From assembly GCA_001899635.1 (NCBI GenBank), contig MKVQ01000023.1, positions 1-64,000 on the forward strand: a stretch of 64,000 bases of DNA, given 5' to 3'. This DNA comes from Myxococcales bacterium 68-20. Its GTDB lineage: Bacteria > Myxococcota_A > Polyangia > Polyangiales > Polyangiaceae. The notes under the pieces were generated by a model, which was not told the origin of the DNA, did no database searches, and saw only the letters and a list, made by a program, of their open reading frames with translations. Shown piece after piece: positions 7,299 to 60,671 of this stretch. Position numbers and translations under genes: made by a program. How positions within the stretch are numbered: position 1 is the first letter of the stretch; each line of letters starts with the position of its first letter.

Positions 7299-8168
7299 TC
7301 AACCTCGCGCCGAGACCCGGACACGCTTGGCACGGCCGCTCGGGGTGATGGGCTTTGCGCGCGTGCGCCCGATCGAGCGGCGAACCGCGCGCTCCGTGCC
7401 GGCGATCGCGCCGTCGATCGCGGCGTTCCGCGAGGCATCCTTCGCCTCGAAGACCACGCTCGGCATCCCGGAGAGGACCACCTTGATGCGGCAGACCTGG
7501 TCGACGCCGCCGCGCGGACCGTTCACGTCCTCGACGCGCACGCTCACGCGCTCGATCGCGTCCGCAAACTTGCCGAGCTTCATCCCGAGCTTCCGGCGGA
7601 TGTAGTCGCGATCCCCCTCCTCGAGCTCCGCGCCGAGCAGGCGCACGTGAGCGGGCACCTCCGGCCCCGCCGTGCGGCCCGCCTGCCGCTTGACCGCTCG
7701 AGGCTTCGCCGCGCCGAGCGGCGCGCGCCGAGCAGTGTCGTGCCGCCGAGGCCGAGCGCGCGCGGCCTGGATGCGTGGCCGCGACCTCCGACTCGCAGCC
7801 GCGCTCTCTCGTCCGAGCTCGTCCAGGACGTCGGTCGCCGTCACGATGCCGACCACGCGGGCGCCTTCGAGCACGGGCAGGCACCCGCTCTGCGCCTCCT
7901 TCATCGAGTCCGCGGCCTGATCGAGCGTCATGTCGGGCCTGACGCCCTTCACGCGCGCGGTCATGAGGTCCTCGACGATGCCTTCACGGACCGCCGAGCT
8001 CCCAGGGAGCAGCACGTCGCGAGCGGAGAGCACGCCGACGAGGCGCCCGTCGTCGAGGACGACGAGGTGCCGGATGTGCTCGCGCTGCATGCGGCGCCGA
8101 GCGACGCTCGCCGTCTCGTCGGGTCCGATGGTGACGACCTTCGTGCTCATGATCTCGCGAAGCCGCAT
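7299..8168 (-). CDS. CBS-pair / HPF (RaiA) fusion protein
   Basis: 289 aa fusion. Residues 1-120 are two CBS motifs (MSTKVVTIGPDETASVARRRM, then DLMTARVKGVRPDMTLDQAAD with VVGIVTATDVLDELG). Residues 121-172 are an Arg-rich linker. Residues 173-270 match the N-terminal domain of HPF/RaiA ribosome-hibernation factors: VRLLGAELEEGDRDYIRRKL, a basic helix, VSVRVEDVNGPRGGVDQVCRIKVVL, FEAKDASRNAAIDGAIAGTERAVRR. The long-HPF dimerisation domain is absent. CBS pairs usually bind adenine nucleotides, so a nucleotide-controlled ribosome-binding protein is inferred. The ATG at 8168 is preceded by GGAAGGAAGGAG at good spacing; an open extension upstream to 8315 lacks family similarity. Gene stands alone. 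Confidence 0.88.
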   Translation of the reverse strand: MRLREIMSTKVVTIGPDETASVARRRMQREHIRHLVVLDDGRLVGVLSARDVLLPGSSAVREGIVEDLMTARVKGVRPDMTLDQAADSMKEAQSGCLPVLEGARVVGIVTATDVLDELGRESAAASRRSRPRIQAARARPRRHDTARRAPLGAAKPRAVKRQAGRTAGPEVPAHVRLLGAELEEGDRDYIRRKLGMKLGKFADAIERVSVRVEDVNGPRGGVDQVCRIKVVLSGMPSVVFEAKDASRNAAIDGAIAGTERAVRRSIGRTRAKPITPSGRAKRVRVSARG

Positions 8169-8648
8169 GAGACTGCTCCTTCCTTCCACGTGTCGGGTGC
8201 CGGCGCGCCGCGTCGACGCTCGAGCTCTCGTCGTCCGATGAGCCAGGCGTCTGCAAGGCGGGAGCCGTCCGCTCACCGGAGCATCGAGGTCGGCGCACCC
8301 GAGCAAGACGGACACGTCGCGCGGGCTCGGGCTACCGATGAGACAAGGGGCCGAGGAGCGCGATCGTCACGGGGATGAAGCGCGACGCTGGGTCGTTCGG
8401 ACACGGTCGACGCGCGCGTCGCACCCGAGGCATTCGGCGCAGTCCCCCCGCGTCCCTGGCGTTCTTGAAGGCTCGGCCACTCCGGCCAGCTTCGCCGCTC
8501 CGCATCTTGCCCGGGCACGACGGGGCGCCAGGCAGCCTCGCACCGCGCGAACGCCGGTGGCGACGGCGCTCGCCTCGCCGACCGCGCGCCTGACCGAGGG
8601 CTGTCGGCCGGCATCCGGCGCGTGAGCGCCGGCGCTCGGCCTGGTGAC
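8169..8648. other. Intergenic region, no gene recognised
   Basis: 480 bases between the CBS-HPF start and the antiporter stop. The last bases before 8168 hold the purine-rich ribosome binding site of the CBS-HPF gene. Short open frames exist on both strands (for example about 8338-8625 forward and 8273-8614 reverse), but they are Arg-rich translations of GC-rich DNA without domain similarity or convincing ribosome binding sites. The promoter of the CBS-HPF gene must lie here; I cannot place it. Confidence 0.6.
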
Positions 8649-10337
8649 TCAGCCTTCTGCCGGCCCCTCTTCGTAGAGCCGGCGGCGCATGGCTTCGCGC
8701 TTCGCGGACGCGAGGCTCTCGGAGTCCTCCGCCGACTTGAGCACCTCGGCGAGGGCGATCGCGACCTCGGCCTCCGCCGCGACCACCTTCGCGCCGGCGT
8801 TGCGGAGCTTGGGTGCCTCGCGAAGGTGCGCGCACCGGGCGAGCACGCGCACCGAGGGGTTCGCGACGCGGGCCTGCCGGATCAGCTCGGCGGCGTCCTC
8901 GATCTCCACGCTGAGGATCAAGCTCCCCGCGGTCGCGATGCCAGCCTCCTCGAGGGTGCCCGGCCGAAGCACGTCTCCGTAGAGGGCCTTGTGCCCTTCC
9001 GCGCGCAGGCGGCGGACGGTCTCGAGATTGAGCTCGATGACGGTCACGTCGGCGTCATATTCGACGAGGAGCCGTCGCACCGTCCTTCCGACCGGCCCGT
9101 ATCCGACGAGGATGCAGCGCCGCGGATCGACGGGCGGCCGCTCGTCGCTTGCAGGGGTGAGCGCTCCCGCGCCTCCCGACAGCTTGCGCGCGAAGCGATA
9201 GACGGTCGGGTTGAGCGCGATCGAGATGATCGACGCGCCGATGAGGGCATTCCATCCGTCGTCGTTGATCACACCGAGGTTCTTCGCGGCGGTCCCGAGG
9301 ATGAAGCTGAACTCGCCCACCTGAGAGAGGGCCGCGCCGACGGCCACTGCCGTGGACATCGGCCTGCCCAAGACGCGCACGACGAGCATCGCCGCGAGCG
9401 GCTTTCCGAGCAGCACGACGGCGAGCACGATCACCACCAGGAGCGGTGAGCGCAACAGGCTGCGCGGATCACACAGCATGCCGACGGAGACGAAGAAGAG
9501 AACCGCGAAGGCATCGCGCATCGGGAGAGCGTCGTTCGCCGCACGAGCGGCGAACTCGGAGCGACCGACCGCAAGACCGGCGAGGAACGCTCCGAGCGCC
9601 ATCGACACGCCGAACAGCTTGGCCGAGCCGACGGCGATCCCGAGCGCGATCACCAGGACGGAGAGGGTGAACAGCTCACGCGACCGCGCAGCTGCGATCT
9701 GTCCGAGCGCCCACGGGATGACCCACTTGCCGAGGACCACGACGACCACGACCAGCGCAACGATCTTGAGCGCGGCCTGCCCGAGCGCCGCCGCCACCCC
9801 CGGGCTGCCGGAGGCGCCTTCACCGAGGAACATCGGCAGGAGGAGCAGCGCCGTGACGGTGAGGAGATCCTCGACGACCGTCCAGCCGATCGCGATGTGC
9901 CCGATCGGCGCATGGAGGTCGTGCCGGTCCGCAAGGACGAGAGCCATCACGACGGTACTGGCGACCGAGATCGAGATGCCGAGGACGATCCCGGACGTCC
10001 AATCCCAACCGACGAGGCGGAGGAGGCCCGCTAACGCGAAGGTCGAGATCGCGCTTTGGAACAACGCCCCCGGAATGGCGATCCGCCAGACGGCGATGAG
10101 CTCGTCCAGATGGAACTTCAGCCCGATGCCGAAGAGGAGCAGGATGACGCCGATCTCGGCGAACTGATCCGCCACGTGTTGATCGGCGACGTAGCCGCCC
10201 GTGAACGGCCCGACCGCGATACCGGCGATCAGGTAGCCCACGATCGGTGAGACGCTGAGGCGCTTCGCGAGGAAGCCAAGGAGGAGGGCCATGGCGAGGC
10301 CCCCCGTGAATGTCATCAATACCGTGAGCTCGTGCAT
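8649..10337 (-). CDS. KefB-type cation:proton antiporter with TrkA-N domain
   Basis: 562 aa monovalent cation:proton antiporter-2 (CPA2) family. Residues 1-375 form about 11-12 membrane segments, with typical stretches SPIVGYLIAGIAVGP, FGIGLKFHLDEL, SISVASTVVMALVLADR and AIGWTVVEDLLTV. A cytoplasmic Rossmann domain of the TrkA-N type follows (about 400-530; CILVGYGPVGRTVRRLL with the acidic end VIELN for NAD(H)). Members exchange K+ or Na+ for H+ and are gated by nucleotides or glutathione adducts. The start is ATG 10337 because the family N-terminus is MHELTVLM; 54 further upstream codons are open but not conserved. Single gene; I infer a role in pH/K+ homeostasis. Confidence 0.93.
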   Translation of the reverse strand: MHELTVLMTFTGGLAMALLLGFLAKRLSVSPIVGYLIAGIAVGPFTGGYVADQHVADQFAEIGVILLLFGIGLKFHLDELIAVWRIAIPGALFQSAISTFALAGLLRLVGWDWTSGIVLGISISVASTVVMALVLADRHDLHAPIGHIAIGWTVVEDLLTVTALLLLPMFLGEGASGSPGVAAALGQAALKIVALVVVVVVLGKWVIPWALGQIAAARSRELFTLSVLVIALGIAVGSAKLFGVSMALGAFLAGLAVGRSEFAARAANDALPMRDAFAVLFFVSVGMLCDPRSLLRSPLLVVIVLAVVLLGKPLAAMLVVRVLGRPMSTAVAVGAALSQVGEFSFILGTAAKNLGVINDDGWNALIGASIISIALNPTVYRFARKLSGGAGALTPASDERPPVDPRRCILVGYGPVGRTVRRLLVEYDADVTVIELNLETVRRLRAEGHKALYGDVLRPGTLEEAGIATAGSLILSVEIEDAAELIRQARVANPSVRVLARCAHLREAPKLRNAGAKVVAAEAEVAIALAEVLKSAEDSESLASAKREAMRRRLYEEGPAEG

Positions 10338-10568
10338 GACCGGCGTTCGCTGCTCAGCGCTTATATCCCAGTTCGCTCGCCGATCGGACCTGCCCGTGCC
10401 GGACGACTCCAGCTCGCCCGTTACGCTCGACGAAGCCCGGATGGGCTCACGGAGGCGCGACCGGCCTGTCGAATGCTGCAACGTCGTCTTTCGCCGCAAA
10501 TTCCCGCAGCAATGACCTCGACGCCCGCGCGCCGACCGTCCGCGAGGGCGCGGCCCGATCAGCGGGGA

Positions 10569-17425: not shown

Positions 17426-19747
17426 ATGAACGACGAAGCATCGCCGGCGAGCGCGCGTGGTCTACTCGTCGCGCGCGGCTGGGTACAAGTGACCCTGCTC
17501 GTGCTGCTCGCCGGCTTCTTCGTGCTCGGCCTGCTCGCATACCGCACGTACGCGGCGAGCCCGCCGATCCCGGACGCGGTCGTCGACCCCAGCGGACGCG
17601 TCGTCTTCACCGGCGCCGACGTGCGCGAGGGGCAGGCCGTCTTCCTCCGCAACGGGCTCATGTCCTACGGCTCGGTCCTCGGTCATGGCGCCTATCTCGG
17701 GCCCGACTTCACGGCCGACTACCTCCGGCGCGCGGCCGATCACGTCCTCGATCATCACGGCGGCGCACTCGAGGGCGCGGAGCGCACGGCGCGCGACTTC
17801 CAGGAGAACCGCTACGACGAGCGAACAGGGAAGCTGGAGACGAGCGAGGCCCAAGCCCGCGCCTTCGAGCACGTGCGCGCTCACTACGGGACGTTCTTCG
17901 GCGAACCGACCACGCGCTGGGGCCTCCGGCCGGGCGCGATCACGGATCCGGCAGAGATCCATCAGCTCACTGCCTTCTTCGCGTGGACGGCATGGGCTGC
18001 CTCGGCGCGCCGTCCGGGCGAGTCCTACTCGTACACGAACAACTGGCCCCCCGAGCCGCGCGTCGGCAACCAGCCGACGGCGCCGATGGTCCTGTGGAGC
18101 ATGCTCTCGCTCGCCGCGCTGCTCGGCGGGATCGGTCTGCTCTTCGCAGCGTACGGCCGGTGGGGTGAGCGGCTCGGATGGCGCGCACGCGATCACGCGC
18201 GCCTCACGTTCCGTGACGAGGTCGAGCTCACGCCGTCACAGCGCGCGACCACCTGGTTCTTCGTCACGATGGCCGCGCTGTTCGTCGTACAGACGCTCGT
18301 CGGTGGTGCCAGCCAGCACTACCGCGCCGAGCTCACGGGCTTCTTCGGGCTCGACCTCGCGCGGGTCTTGCCGTTCAACCTCGCTCGCACGTGGCATCTC
18401 CAGCTCGCCATCTTGTGGGTGGCCACCTCGTACCTCGCGGCCGGCATCTTCATCGCCCCGCTGATCGCGCGCGGCGAACCGCGCGGTCAGGGACCGTTCG
18501 TCTTCGCGCTGCTCGGCGCGCTCGTCGTCGTGGTCACTGGCAGCCTCGCAGGCGAGCTCGCGGGCATCCATGGTTGGACCACGAGCACATGGCTGGGCAA
18601 CCAGGGCTTCGAGTACCTCGAGCTCGGACGCGTATGGCAGGTGCTGCTCGTCCTGGGGCTCACGTTCTGGGTCGGGCTGCTCTACCGCACGCTGCGACCG
18701 CGGTTGGGGCGCGAGCACGCGGGCAACATGCCATGGCTGTTCTTCTTCTCGGCCCTCGCGATCCCCGCGTTCTACGCGGTCGGCCTGCTCGTGCACCACG
18801 AGGCAAGCTTCACCGCGAACGACTTCTGGCGCTTCTGGGTCGTCCACCTCTGGGTCGAGGACTTCCTCGAGATCTTCACCACGGTGGTGGTCGCGTACAT
18901 GTTCGTGCTGCTCGGCGTGGTCGCGGAACGCGTGGCGATGCTCGTCGTCTACCTGCACGTGATCCTGTACTCGGTCGGCGGCGTCATCGGGACGATGCAC
19001 CATCTCTACTTCTCCGGCGCACCCGTCGAGCACATGGCCCTCGGCGCCTTCTTCTCCGCCGCCGAGGTCCTGCCGCTCACGTTCCTGACGGTCGAGGCGT
19101 GGTCGTTTCTCCGCCTCGGCGCCACGCAGGAGGGGTCGACGAGCCAGCCGTTCCTCCATCGCTGGGCCGTGATGTGCCTCGTCGCCGTGGGGTTCTGGAA
19201 CTTCCTCGGGGCGGGCATCTTCGGCTTCCTGATCAACCTCCCCATCGTCAGCTACTACGAGATCGGGACCGCGCTCACGTCGAACCACGGCCACGCATCC
19301 ATGATGGGTGTGTACGGGATGCTCGCCGTCGGGCTCGCGCTGTTCGCGCTCCGCTACCTGACGCAGCGCGAGCGCTGGTCGGACCGCCTCGCGGCGCTGA
19401 CCTTCTGGTCGCTCAACGTCGGGCTGGCGTGGATGGTGTTCGCCACGCTCTTCCCGCTCGGCCTGCTGCAGCTTCACCAATCGGTGGAGCACGGCTACTT
19501 CGAGGCGCGCGCCCTCACGGCAGCGACGAGCGAGACGCGCGCTCTCGTCGAGTGGCTCCGGCTCCCCGGGGATGCCGTGTTCATCGCGGGCGGAGCGATC
19601 CCGCTCCTCCTCCTCGCCGTTCGGGCGGCGCGCTTTCCCTCGCGTGGCACGACGACGGAGCTCCCCGACGTGCTCTTCACCGAGCTCGACCCGGCCGCCA
19701 GTGAACACGAGGCGAGCGCGGAGAGCGAACCGCCGGGCACGACATGA
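17426..19747 (+). CDS. norB: Quinol-dependent nitric oxide reductase (qNOR)
   Basis: 773 aa single-subunit nitric oxide reductase that reduces 2 NO to N2O with quinol electrons, in the inner membrane. The first TM (about 20-45) is followed by a periplasmic cytochrome-c-like domain lacking any CxxCH haem motif (diagnostic of qNOR rather than cNOR), with typical VFTGADVREGQAVFLRNGLMSYGS. The 12-TM haem-copper oxidase core follows. Ligand regions: RTWHLQLAILW (about 323), the FeB motif HLWVEDFLEIF with its conserved Glu (about 473), the MHH pair before LYFSG (about 525), and NHGHASMMGVYG (about 620). No norD/norQ neighbours, as usual for detoxifying qNOR. The stop overlaps the next gene by ATGA. 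Confidence 0.96.
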   Translation: MNDEASPASARGLLVARGWVQVTLLVLLAGFFVLGLLAYRTYAASPPIPDAVVDPSGRVVFTGADVREGQAVFLRNGLMSYGSVLGHGAYLGPDFTADYLRRAADHVLDHHGGALEGAERTARDFQENRYDERTGKLETSEAQARAFEHVRAHYGTFFGEPTTRWGLRPGAITDPAEIHQLTAFFAWTAWAASARRPGESYSYTNNWPPEPRVGNQPTAPMVLWSMLSLAALLGGIGLLFAAYGRWGERLGWRARDHARLTFRDEVELTPSQRATTWFFVTMAALFVVQTLVGGASQHYRAELTGFFGLDLARVLPFNLARTWHLQLAILWVATSYLAAGIFIAPLIARGEPRGQGPFVFALLGALVVVVTGSLAGELAGIHGWTTSTWLGNQGFEYLELGRVWQVLLVLGLTFWVGLLYRTLRPRLGREHAGNMPWLFFFSALAIPAFYAVGLLVHHEASFTANDFWRFWVVHLWVEDFLEIFTTVVVAYMFVLLGVVAERVAMLVVYLHVILYSVGGVIGTMHHLYFSGAPVEHMALGAFFSAAEVLPLTFLTVEAWSFLRLGATQEGSTSQPFLHRWAVMCLVAVGFWNFLGAGIFGFLINLPIVSYYEIGTALTSNHGHASMMGVYGMLAVGLALFALRYLTQRERWSDRLAALTFWSLNVGLAWMVFATLFPLGLLQLHQSVEHGYFEARALTAATSETRALVEWLRLPGDAVFIAGGAIPLLLLAVRAARFPSRGTTTELPDVLFTELDPAASEHEASAESEPPGTT

Positions 19748-20275: not shown

Positions 20276-20800
20276 TCAGCGCGCCCTGGTCGCCTTCGAA
20301 GCTCGCGCGCGCGGCCGTGCTCCTTCCTTCGCTGCACGCGAGGTGGCGCGCGTACGCGCGACGCCGCCGAGGGTATGGTGGCCAGCCGGTGCTCGGCGGA
20401 CGCGACGCTCGGCACGGACCGTCGGTCGCGTCGACCCGCGACCGAGCTGATCGAGGATGTCGGTCGTCGTCACGATGCCGACGACTCGCCCGTCCTCGAG
20501 CACGGGGAGACAACCGATGGTGCGGCCGCGCATGAGGTTCGCTGCCTGCCGGATCGTCGTCGTAGGCTCGGCGGCCACCACCTGCCGCGTCATCAGCTCG
20601 GCGACCGTTCGTCCCTTGCGCACCGTGACGCCGCCTCGCCCGCCGAGATCGCGATCCGACAGGACGCCTACGACGCGCTTACCCTCCATCACCACGAGGT
20701 GGCGCAGGCGCCTCGTCCGCATCACGGACCATGCGCGGTCTGCGTCTTCACTGGGGGACGTCATGATCACTCGGGTATTCATGATCTCGGAGACTCGCAT
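20276..20800 (-). CDS. CBS-pair protein with basic tail
   Basis: 174 aa. ATG 20800 (MRVSEIMNTRVIMTSP) begins exactly at the first CBS motif; 34 upstream open codons are not conserved. Two CBS motifs span residues 1-123 (MRTRRLRHLVVMEGKRVVGVLSDRD; ELMTRQVVAAEPTTTIRQAANLM; VVGIVTTTDILDQLG). The tail (124-174) is strongly basic and similar in position and composition to the linker that joins CBS to HPF in 7299-8168, but there is no HPF domain here. Probably an adenine-nucleotide sensor. Divergent from D-lactate dehydrogenase (104 bp between starts), so they may share control. Confidence 0.88.
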   Translation of the reverse strand: MRVSEIMNTRVIMTSPSEDADRAWSVMRTRRLRHLVVMEGKRVVGVLSDRDLGGRGGVTVRKGRTVAELMTRQVVAAEPTTTIRQAANLMRGRTIGCLPVLEDGRVVGIVTTTDILDQLGRGSTRPTVRAERRVRRAPAGHHTLGGVARTRATSRAAKEGARPRARASKATRAR

Positions 20801-36190: not shown

Positions 36191-36946
36191 ATGAGGTCGG
36201 AGTGGCAGAAACTGCGCGGCAAGAGGATCGCGATCCTTGCAGGCGACGGCTTCGAATACGTCGAGCTCGTCGTCCCGAAGAAGGCTCTGGAGCGCGCAGG
36301 CGCGGACACGGAGGTCGTCTCGCTGCACGAGGGCAAGATCCGCGGGATGAACATCACCGAGCCGACGAGAGCGGTGCGGGTCGACTGCACCCTCGAGGCC
36401 GCCGATCCGGACCGCTACGACGCGCTCCTCATCCCTGGTGGCTTCATCGGCCCCGACTTCATTCGCCAGAGCGGGAAGGCGCGAAGCTTCGTCCGGGCGT
36501 TCGACGCGGCGGGCAAGCCGATTGCCACGCTCTGCCATGGTCCCTGGCTGCTCGTGTCGGCGGAGCTGGTACGCGGACGCGTCCTCGCGTCGTGGCCCGG
36601 GGTCCGCGATGACATCGTCCACGCAGGGGGCGTCTGGCGCGACGAGCCGGTGGTCATCGATGGGAACTGGGTCTCGAGCCGAGGTCCCGCAGACCTCCAT
36701 GTCTTCGTCCCCGTCATGATCGCGCTGTTCACCGGCCCGGCCGAGGAGCAAGCGCCCAGCCCTCCCGAGGAGGCCGCTCCGCGCCCCGACGTCTCGTCGC
36801 CGCAATACGACCGCCCCGTCCCGGCGGCCGTGGAGGCGGCGACCCACCTCCACCGCTCCTCGGCATGGACGATCTTCGGCCTAACCCTGGCCGTCGGGCT
36901 CGTCGTCAGCCTCACCTCCCTCGTGCGCCGCCGTTTGCTCGGCTGA
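36191..36946 (+). CDS. DJ-1/PfpI protein with C-terminal membrane anchor
   Basis: 251 aa. DJ-1/PfpI domain 10-185: GFEYVELVVPKKALERAGA (Glu of the active site near 22), YDALLIPGG, and nucleophile Cys115 in ATLCHGPWLL. Resembles YhbO/PfpI proteases or deglycases. Unlike usual 170-190 aa members, a Pro/Ser linker (190-220) and a TM helix (TIFGLTLAVGLVVSLTSLV, about 228-246) with Arg-rich tail follow, so it should be anchored facing the cytoplasm. Follows DsbA-like gene by 35 bp. Converges with 36997. Confidence 0.9.
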   Translation: MRSEWQKLRGKRIAILAGDGFEYVELVVPKKALERAGADTEVVSLHEGKIRGMNITEPTRAVRVDCTLEAADPDRYDALLIPGGFIGPDFIRQSGKARSFVRAFDAAGKPIATLCHGPWLLVSAELVRGRVLASWPGVRDDIVHAGGVWRDEPVVIDGNWVSSRGPADLHVFVPVMIALFTGPAEEQAPSPPEEAAPRPDVSSPQYDRPVPAAVEAATHLHRSSAWTIFGLTLAVGLVVSLTSLVRRRLLG

Positions 36947-42082: not shown

Positions 42083-42856
42083 TCATACGCGCTGCGAAGC
42101 GCCCGCGATGGCCCGCGTCGCACGCGTCTTGGGCGAGCGCAACTCCCTCTCGTTGCGCCGCGCCTGATTGCTGTCGCGCTTCGATCGGTTCGCGCTCTTG
42201 CGCGTCGATTTGCGCGACGGGCGCTCCGCGGCCGAGAGCTCGCGCGCAGAAGTGGCTCGCGCCTGACGCTGCGTCTTGTGGATGTGACGGCCACGCAGCG
42301 GATGGGCGGTCTTGACCGAACGCGGGGTCAGGTGCCGTTCCTTGGCGGCTTCACGGTCGCGCTCCGCGAGCTCCGCCTCCGTCTCGCCCCCTCCGAGCGC
42401 TTGCGTTCGCCGGACCTCGAGGAGCCTCGGAGCCCCCTCGGCCTTCCGTCGCGCGACCTTGGGCTTGCGTGCGCGATCGCGGCGCCGTTCGGCCTCCTCG
42501 ACCTCGCGTCGTACCGCATCGAGGATGGCGTCACCCGCGAGCGCGACGGCCTCTTGCTCGGTCCTCGCGCGAGCCTCGACGTAGAACTTCGGTGCATCGA
42601 CGACCTTGACCAGCGTGACCTCGACCCGACACGCCCAGTGGAGCTTCCCCGGCGCGCTGATGATCTGGTCCAAGCGAATGCCGACCCGACGGATGTGCTT
42701 GCCGTACCCCTCGAGCCCCGAACGGACGACACCGACGGCGTGCTCTTCGGCCGTCGTCGGGCGCATGGCGCGTGGATAGAGCCGGATCTCGAGCTCGGGG
42801 GGCGCACCCCAGCCGCCGGCCGCGACGGGCCGTCGGCTCGCATTGAGTTGTTCCAT
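42083..42856 (-). CDS. HPF/RaiA-like protein with long basic tail
   Basis: 257 aa. Residues about 20-125 resemble the HPF/RaiA domain: VEVTLVKVVDAPKFYVEARARTEQEAVALAGDAILDAVRREV matches the strand and helix alternation of S30AE proteins. Residues 126-257 are Arg/Lys/Glu-rich, without the long-HPF C-terminal domain, and end in a strongly basic, probably disordered tail (RKSTRKSANRSKRDSNQARR). Likely binds ribosomes; the tail may contact RNA. Converges with the BON gene (78 bp gap), diverges from the sirtuin gene (86 bp). Confidence 0.75.
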   Translation of the reverse strand: MEQLNASRRPVAAGGWGAPPELEIRLYPRAMRPTTAEEHAVGVVRSGLEGYGKHIRRVGIRLDQIISAPGKLHWACRVEVTLVKVVDAPKFYVEARARTEQEAVALAGDAILDAVRREVEEAERRRDRARKPKVARRKAEGAPRLLEVRRTQALGGGETEAELAERDREAAKERHLTPRSVKTAHPLRGRHIHKTQRQARATSARELSAAERPSRKSTRKSANRSKRDSNQARRNERELRSPKTRATRAIAGASQRV

Positions 42857-51335: not shown

Positions 51336-51919
51336 ACGTGACCTCGCTACCTTCGCGCCTCGGGGACAGGGCCGTCAACGGGATCGCGCGCCGGCTCGCG
51401 CCTCGGTCGCTCGCGTTCGCTCGCGTTCGCCGCTCGGGAGCGCGGCTGGCGTAGAGCCACTGCTGTTCGCTCGAGTAGGCCGGAGACCGATTCCGGATCC
51501 CGAGCTCCGATTCCGGGACCCGGATCCCGAGCTCCGATTCCGATTCCGGATTCCGAGCTCCGATTCCGGGATCCGGCCCCGAGCTCCGATTCCGATTCCG
51601 ATTCCGGATCCGGATTCCGAGCTCCGATTCCCGATCCGGATCCGGAATCGGAGCTCCGAGTCCGGGGCCGGAGCGGGACGGGACATCGTTTACAGATCAC
51701 TGGCGAGTCCACGACGCTGCATGCGAACGGCAGTCGTCGCGAGCTGTTGGGCGCCGGGCATCTCGGCCCGGCTTCACCTCGGACGCGCACATCCCGCGCC
51801 GCCGGCCTGCTGCGCGAGGTGAGCACTGAAGAGGGGTCGATTGCCGGCGTCACGGGATCTGCGCGGTGGGGTCGGCGAAGCCGGGCCGAGACGCCCGGCG
51901 CTCGCCCAAGGAGCTCGCC
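51336..51919. other. Intergenic region with minisatellite
   Basis: 584 bases holding the imperfect minisatellite at 51488-51668 and, near its end, the AAGGAG ribosome binding site for 51920. Long open frames run through the minisatellite on both strands because its unit is a multiple of three or nearly so, giving low-complexity peptides rich in Ser/Glu/Gly/Ile; I do not count them as genes. Confidence 0.7.
51488..51668. repeat. Minisatellite of 26-27-bp units
   Basis: CGAGCTCCGATTCC occurs at 51501, 51528, 51554, 51580 and 51618 (spacings 27, 26, 26 and 38). Each copy is joined by runs of ATTCCG/GGATCC-type hexamers. Imperfect, without spacers of constant length, so not CRISPR. Confidence 0.9.
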
Positions 51920-52252
51920 ATGCACCTGCATATTCTCGATGACATCGTCGAAACTGTCGGCACCATCCACCGGCTCTGTCGCATCATCTCCCGGCAGGAT
52001 CCGGACCTCAGCAGGCAGATGAAGCGCGCCGTCAACTCGGTCGGCCTCAACGCCGGAGAGGGCCTCTCGGCGCGCGGAGGGAATCGCACCGTCCGCATCG
52101 AGAGCGCCATGGCCAGCGGACGCGAGGTCATCCTCGGCCTGCGCATCGCGGGCGCCGCGGGCTACCTCGACGCAGAGCGCGTGGCGCGGCAGGTCGATTC
52201 GCTCGATCGCATCGTCGCTACGCTCTACAAGCTCGCCTATCGTCCGGCCTGA
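51920..52252 (+). CDS. Four-helix bundle (23S rRNA intervening-sequence type) protein
   Basis: 110 aa from ATG 51920 after AAGGAG. Matches the IVP/'four helix bundle protein' family: QMKRAVNSVGLNAGEGLSARGGN (a signature loop), then a second helical hairpin (GREVILGLRIAGAAGYLDAERVARQVDSLDRIVATLYKLA). Members are named after proteins encoded in 23S rRNA intervening sequences, but many are free-standing; the homologue Avd binds nucleic acid in retroelements. Here it stands alone, no rRNA nearby. Function unknown. Confidence 0.9.
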   Translation: MHLHILDDIVETVGTIHRLCRIISRQDPDLSRQMKRAVNSVGLNAGEGLSARGGNRTVRIESAMASGREVILGLRIAGAAGYLDAERVARQVDSLDRIVATLYKLAYRPA

Positions 52253-60158: not shown

Positions 60159-60671
60159 TCACGTGTGGTGGTGGAGGGCCGCCTGCTCGGCCAGCGACGG
60201 CCGCTCGTGGAGACGCTCGGCGAACGACTGGTACTCGCCTCCCGGCTCCCGCACCGTCAGCACCGGACAGGGGGCGTTGCGCACGACCCCTTCCGCGACG
60301 CTGCCGAGCAGCATGTGAAGTCGACCGACACGTCCGTGCGTTCCCATGACGATGAGCTCGTAGCCCCCTTCGCTCGCGATCTCGATGATCCGTCGAAGGG
60401 GATCGCCGGGCACCGTTCGCCGCGTCACCCGCTCGCCGAGCCGCGCCTCGGCTCCTGCAAGCGCACAGTCCATCTCGCGTCGGATCTCCTCACGAGCGCT
60501 CGGTGCAAGCTCGGTCATCGACCCCGTCTCGAACTCGTCGGGAGCCTCGACGTGGAGGACGTCGACCCTCGTCGAAGTGCTCTCCGCCGCGAGCGCGACC
60601 GCATGTTCGAGCGCCGCCCTCGAGGGTGGGGAGCCGTCGATCGGGACGAGGATGGTTCGAATGGAGGCCAT
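60159..60671 (-). CDS. UspA universal stress protein
   Basis: 170 aa. Usp fold with TILVPIDGSPPSRAALEHAVALA, VDVLHVEAPDE and ATP motif GTHGRVGRLHMLLGSVAEGVV followed by NAPCPVLTV (G-x2-G-x9-G-S type, ATP-binding class). C-terminal 25 residues extend the family end (AERLHERPSLAEQAALHHHT), including a His-rich tip. Cytoplasmic, stress survival. Convergent with the hybrid kinase; divergent from pyrophosphatase (139 bp). Confidence 0.94.
   Translation of the reverse strand: MASIRTILVPIDGSPPSRAALEHAVALAAESTSTRVDVLHVEAPDEFETGSMTELAPSAREEIRREMDCALAGAEARLGERVTRRTVPGDPLRRIIEIASEGGYELIVMGTHGRVGRLHMLLGSVAEGVVRNAPCPVLTVREPGGEYQSFAERLHERPSLAEQAALHHHT

Follow-up and report, generated by a model that had tools for sequence, protein, structure and literature searches.

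The window analysed here, a stretch of 64,000 nucleotides from Myxococcales bacterium 68-20, encodes a protein in which a pair of CBS motifs is joined through an arginine-rich linker to a domain of the HPF/RaiA type, and which, judging from sequence comparisons, is most likely a convergent bacterial CBS2-HPF factor. As regards its function, the protein probably plugs the 30S channel with its HPF-type domain and carries a dimerising, adenylate-binding CBS module, which would reach the 50S subunit or rRNA by means of a basic tether. The general idea, including the binding of adenylate by a CBS-HPF chain, is already in print for archaea. New here is a bacterial form with half the number of CBS motifs, a long disordered basic linker, an HPF domain of a bacterial branch and bacterial CBS sisters.

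The coding sequence (8168..7299, minus strand, 289 aa) runs from an ATG at 8168 to a stop codon at 7299, and a likely Shine-Dalgarno sequence, AAGGAG (8176..8181, minus strand), lies 7 bases upstream of the start. A different open frame on the plus strand of the same interval, 7299..8168, was discarded, the fusion protein being encoded on the minus strand. The chain, all of it on that strand, consists of a CBS pair or Bateman module (aa 1-120, 7809..8168), an Arg-rich linker with 13 R, 2 K and 3 D+E that is mostly disordered by prediction (aa 121-172, 7653..7808), an HPF/RaiA (Ribosomal_S30AE) domain carrying the motif D-NGPRGG-D--C (aa 173-270, 7359..7652) and a basic C-terminal tail with 6 R/K and no D/E (aa 271-289, 7299..7358 including the stop). 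Pfam recognises both domains within the one chain: CBS (PF00571) in two stretches, with an E value of 1.2e-27 and 96.5 bits, and Ribosomal_S30AE (PF02482) over residues 181-268, with an E value of 3.2e-7 and 31.4 bits against a cut-off of 23.7. With E values of up to 1 allowed, Pfam finds no HPF dimerisation domain, PF16321, in the chain. The initial annotation had described the same layout and domain bounds, which Pfam and the predicted model bear out, as well as the lack of the usual dimerisation domain, with which the PF16321 search agrees; its reservation that S30AE homology might be missing in an HMM search is removed by the PF02482 score.

Overall, eight full-length CBS-HPF fusions are found, including that of the window. 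Searches with tblastn over genome contigs yielded five relatives with 44-54% identity, out of 72 candidate stretches, all of them from metagenome-assembled genomes (MAGs) assigned to Bryobacterales/Bryobacteraceae (three), Phycisphaerales (one) and Proteobacteria (one), and profile searches contributed two further fusions (G376 and G1640). The frame is open at the CBS-to-HPF junction in all eight, with the same domain order and no internal stop, and the end of the linker is partly conserved across them. That a frameshift, sequencing error or misassembly merged two genes, a doubt also raised initially, is a thought encouraged by the fact that all five fusions from named organisms other than the window's come from MAGs, but the eight independent open copies rule it out and leave it a negligible probability. 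Purifying selection on the CBS and HPF domains is seen between the three close Bryobacterales copies, where dN/dS is 0.11-0.14 in the CBS part and 0.09-0.21 in the HPF part, with 0.03-0.36 in the linker. In four more distant pairs, most of them close to saturation with a dS around or over 1, the values are 0.21-0.31 (CBS), 0.60-0.80 (linker) and 0.17-0.55 (HPF), and the linker is only loosely constrained. Four of the seven other fusions pass the Pfam cut-off for S30AE (31.3-37.9 bits), two score under it (L106, 20.3 bits; L115, 18.9 bits) and one, L041, whose HPF part is the most diverged relative to that of the window, has no S30AE match in Pfam at E 0.01; in these last three the HPF domain is assigned by alignment to the other fusions.

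A mobile or viral origin of the fusion was considered and rejected. The fusion protein has no tblastn match in the phage collection, the single matching record of the plasmid collection, 4.9 Mb long, matches in the CBS part only, none of the 12 candidate stretches of the viral_contigs profile scan was confirmed, and no PHROGs family matches it.

In every group sampled, the fusion is rare and patchy. Within the phylum of the window, it is present at full length in one of 282 genomes, namely the window's own, which is also the only carrier in its family among the matches listed for 98 genomes. The remaining surveys were centred on known carriers, and their rates are therefore not unbiased: the fusion was recovered at full length in 2/297 genomes of the phylum of G358 (G358 and G376), in 1/294 of that of G360 (G360 itself, where the match ends beyond the gene's stop codon) and in 1/398 of that of G362 (G362 itself), as well as in 2/130 genomes of the order of G358, both already known, 1/131 of the order of G360 (G360 itself) and 2/120 of the order of G376 (G376 and G1640). 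The profile searches, made with alignment A1, scored 6-20 candidates per genome at E cut-offs from 1e-22 to 1e-55, at which misses are possible.

The predicted model of the protein has a mean pLDDT of 71.5, from an alignment of only six sequences, and a pTM of 0.40, its interdomain arrangement not being interpretable. The CBS part ends in the model at about residue 128 and is followed by a disordered stretch of roughly 40 residues (129-170), about which structure alignments say little. The C-terminal part is predicted to have the HPF fold: with VIA-align, residues 167-276 match chain y of 5mmj, presumably pY/PSRP1, in the chloroplast small subunit (Z 15.2, rmsd 2.1, 110 aligned), and the C-terminal part also matches chain y of 28lu, the chlororibosome with factor pY (Z 15.1, rmsd 1.8, 105 aligned). 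In a PDB sequence search, the best solved relative of the HPF part is chain v of 7m4z (E 4.2e-5); the two agree at 24 of 78 aligned positions, NG-GG-D-C among them. This entry is the hpf-bound 70S ribosome of A. baumannii, in which HPF was fitted as a homology model (PMC8263017); the density could therefore belong to another paralogue. The sequence relationship thus supports ribosome binding by this S30AE branch, with some caution, because the authors fitted a homology model. A role in ribosome hibernation is the likeliest for the fusion, given the predicted HPF fold and a closest solved relative that is itself the HPF in an hpf-bound 70S.

The HPF core is strongly conserved in the alignment of the fusions, and the HPF parts resemble unfused HPF proteins in relatives of the window's genome, with which they have the motif D-NGP(R/K)GG-D--C in common. 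Eight such unfused S30AE proteins (L009-L014, L046 and L047) bear a different C-terminal domain instead, of the S(L/F)(I/V)GRRVG...PSRKSTRKS type or close variants of it. From short HPF, RaiA and pY, the fusion differs in that the 7m4z chain, with its 116 residues, is too short for a CBS pair. Long HPF is similar in having a second module besides the HPF core, which in this case is the PF16321 dimerisation domain, located at the C-terminus and absent from the fusion. The genome of the window (11.9 Mb, 69% G+C, 98.4% complete) is also devoid of PF16321 matches (0/1, with a control search positive in 8/14 named genomes), so that it has no canonical long HPF, and long HPF was rejected as the identity of the fusion on the basis of both absences.

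Within the CBS pair, the (S/T)xxD signature, through which CBS motifs contact ribose/phosphate, is kept in both copies (S48-D51 and T110-D113), as it is in all six fusions of alignment A1 and in the two added later. The CBS fold of the model matches AMP-bound AcuB (9s52) with a Z of 17.1 (VIA-align), and many CBS folds with other ligands match too. Nucleotide binding by the CBS pair is plausible because the signature is kept and AMP-bound CBS folds are among the best structure matches. According to a tree built from the 70 CBS stretches found, after exclusion of 16 at <=85 bits, the CBS pairs of the eight fusions group with 13 CBS-only proteins, in which the HPF profile found nothing, in a single 21-row clade (support 99/94). 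All of these sisters except one, whose tail has 7 residues, end in a basic tail 24-53 residues long that contains 6-16 Arg/Lys and 0-5 Asp/Glu. One CBS-only paralogue of this clade, without HPF and with 16 R/K in a 53-residue tail, is encoded in the window itself (20276..20800, minus strand).

Neither the CBS tree nor the HPF tree (26 rows, short, poorly supported and with long branches) puts the fusions alone on one side of a branch. Each needs three label changes, and supported branches force two of the CBS tree's changes and one of the HPF tree's; this pattern may correspond to several fusion events or to one gain followed by losses. We infer a bacterial origin of the fusion, separate from that of the archaeal factor HibA, with a CBS protein already bearing a basic tail as its precursor. 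An unfused arrangement is present in G151 (L113 5712-7398), where a CBS-DUF2267 gene begins 58 bases past the stop of a free HPF gene and reads in the same direction.

HibA is an archaeal ribosome hibernation factor described in Nat Commun in April 2026 (PMC13324472; PDB 9SR9, 9SRA-9SRF and 9T7H), and the following features are taken from the sections of that report covered here. It is a four-CBS and HPF chain present in 47% of archaeal genomes, and has been observed on ribosomes in three positions, with its N-terminal CBS module located on the 50S subunit (PMC13324472). This module binds AMP best (Kd of 12 μM for AMP, 65 for ADP and 113 for ATP); AMP and ATP are without clear effect on ribosome binding, and one additional, weakly populated state is seen when ATP is present (PMC13324472). 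In both HibA and the fusion, the CBS part is N-terminal and the HPF/RaiA domain C-terminal within a single chain. They differ in the number of CBS motifs, four in HibA (1-269) and two here, and in the basic linker of about 50 residues, a feature of the bacterial fusion. HibA has a PTC loop and, in its HPF domain, two archaeal insertions; the HPF domain of the fusion appears to be of the bacterial type. Comparing lengths only, the HPF part has 98 residues in the fusion and 118 (270-387) modelled in HibA. Among PDB sequences, this fast-evolving domain finds six matches at E up to 10, none of them a HibA chain, and the stretch of HibA that best matches profile A1 falls in its CBS part. It is the number of CBS motifs, the bacterial CBS clade and the PDB matches that make convergence the most likely history.

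Other archaeal proteins bring CBS modules to ribosomes. Dri of Pyrobaculum is described, in the same report, in terms of CBS modules only (PMC13324472), and SriA-D, likewise CBS modules on ribosomes, are named in the titles of the Methanosarcina 70S entries 9znf and 9zni. Also archaeal is HVO_2384 of Haloferax, a 42.5 kDa protein with tandem CBS and a C-terminal hibernation-factor domain, which was reported from a co-purification and for which a link to energy status has been proposed, as stated in the sections covered here (PMC12607858). No bacterial CBS-HPF protein was found described in the literature searched, and the HibA authors, who looked in bacteria for HPF proteins with further domains attached, mention none with CBS in the sections of their report covered here (PMC13324472). 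The initial statement that this fusion was not known as a characterised protein thus holds for bacteria within that literature, and has been overtaken in archaea by the four-CBS HibA.

In the reading considered probable here, the C-terminal HPF domain would occupy the mRNA/tRNA channel of the 30S subunit, in the manner of short HPF, RaiA and pY, and idle the ribosome. The N-terminal CBS pair would bind an adenylate, most likely AMP, and would probably homodimerise, since with two CBS motifs per chain a CBS disk like the four-CBS one of HibA takes two chains. The basic linker, being flexible, may bring rRNA or unoccupied 50S/tRNA sites within range of the CBS module, which would stabilise or time the idle state. 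HibA provides a precedent for a CBS-HPF chain on ribosomes. Against this reading stand the rarity of the fusion, the modest Pfam score of its HPF domain, with none in L041, the dN/dS of distant pairs, of up to 0.80 in the linker and 0.55 in HPF, and the five other Pfam-visible HPF places of the genome, next to which the fusion may be specialised or dispensable.

The main alternative, which we regard as unlikely, is that the HPF domain has drifted into a nucleic-acid or RNA-binding tail of a CBS regulator and no longer plugs the decoding centre. The plain basic tails of 12 of the 13 sister CBS-only proteins, the mixing of fused and unfused forms in the trees and the three relatives with a low or no S30AE score would fit such a drift, but the HPF core is strongly conserved across the fusions, its predicted fold is close to that of ribosome-bound factors and 7m4z is a sequence relative. 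Other proposals concern what the CBS pair does, and could be refinements compatible with the plug-and-tether reading. The initial annotation proposed a direct energy switch, with AMP or ATP on the CBS pair deciding whether the protein binds ribosomes. The conserved CBS signature and the nucleotide preference of the HibA module (AMP > ADP > ATP; PMC13324472) argue for it; the absence of a clear AMP/ATP effect on ribosome binding by HibA in the sections covered, where ATP only added a weakly populated state, and the disordered stretch of residues 129-170, which makes tight allosteric coupling less natural, argue against it, and such a switch is possible and rather doubtful. A further proposal is that the CBS pair stands in for the dimerisation domain of long HPF, such that a dimer with two HPF heads joins two ribosomes in a geometry set by adenylate. 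CBS pairs commonly dimerise, the genome lacks PF16321 and the linker is predicted to be long and flexible, but the CBS pair is N-terminal here, as in HibA, where the module sits on the 50S, whereas the dimerisation domain of long HPF is C-terminal, and bridging is quite unlikely. The same slim chance is given to the combined picture of a bacterial CBS-HPF protein, evolved apart from archaea, in which a CBS dimer with two HPF heads would let adenylate control the pairing or release of ribosomes in a lineage without long HPF.

If the plug-and-tether reading is true, a CBS module on HPF has been reached in bacteria and archaea alike, which would argue for a benefit in coupling the idling of ribosomes to the sensing of nucleotides, and the bacterial protein, with two CBS motifs and a flexible linker, would lend itself more simply than HibA to studying whether adenylates affect hibernation. 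A coupling of HPF domains to small-ligand sensors may extend further, as suggested by a full-length HPF-basic linker-TrkA_N fusion in 3 out of 121 genomes (L081 1468-2379 in G360:C58, from which the Pfam domain calls were taken, G1489:C12 and G1546:C38). TrkA_N is an NAD-binding type of domain, and no description of such a fusion was found in the literature searched. G360 holds both this and a CBS-HPF fusion. If the reading as a CBS dimer with two heads were true, the two architectures would form a wider class of ligand-sensing hibernation factors. In the window, the neighbouring gene (8649..10346, minus strand) encodes a Na/H exchanger with TrkA_N, the domain type fused to HPF elsewhere.

The genome has seven known HPF-type places, six of them Pfam-visible S30AE and the seventh a Pfam-invisible protein in the window, at 42.1-42.9 kb. 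One S30AE domain (L003; G000:C42:234281-234580) is fused to a cold-shock domain, PF00313. The Pfam-invisible protein (42083..42856, minus strand, 257 aa) has no match at E 0.01, and its single-sequence model (pLDDT 63) retrieves HPF/pY-type ribosome chains as top Foldseek rows (5mmj_y, E 3.6e-4), with dsRNA-binding domains ranking next; its basic C-terminal tail carries the PSRKSTRKSANR motif of the HPF proteins of relatives. Elsewhere in the window, a 23S_rRNA_IVP-like protein (51866..52249, plus strand) scores 33.6 bits against a Pfam cut-off of 33.8. Genes for a NorB-type nitric oxide reductase (17426..19747, plus strand), a DJ-1/PfpI protein (36191..36946, plus strand) and a universal stress protein (60159..60671, minus strand) possibly make up a stress-related setting.
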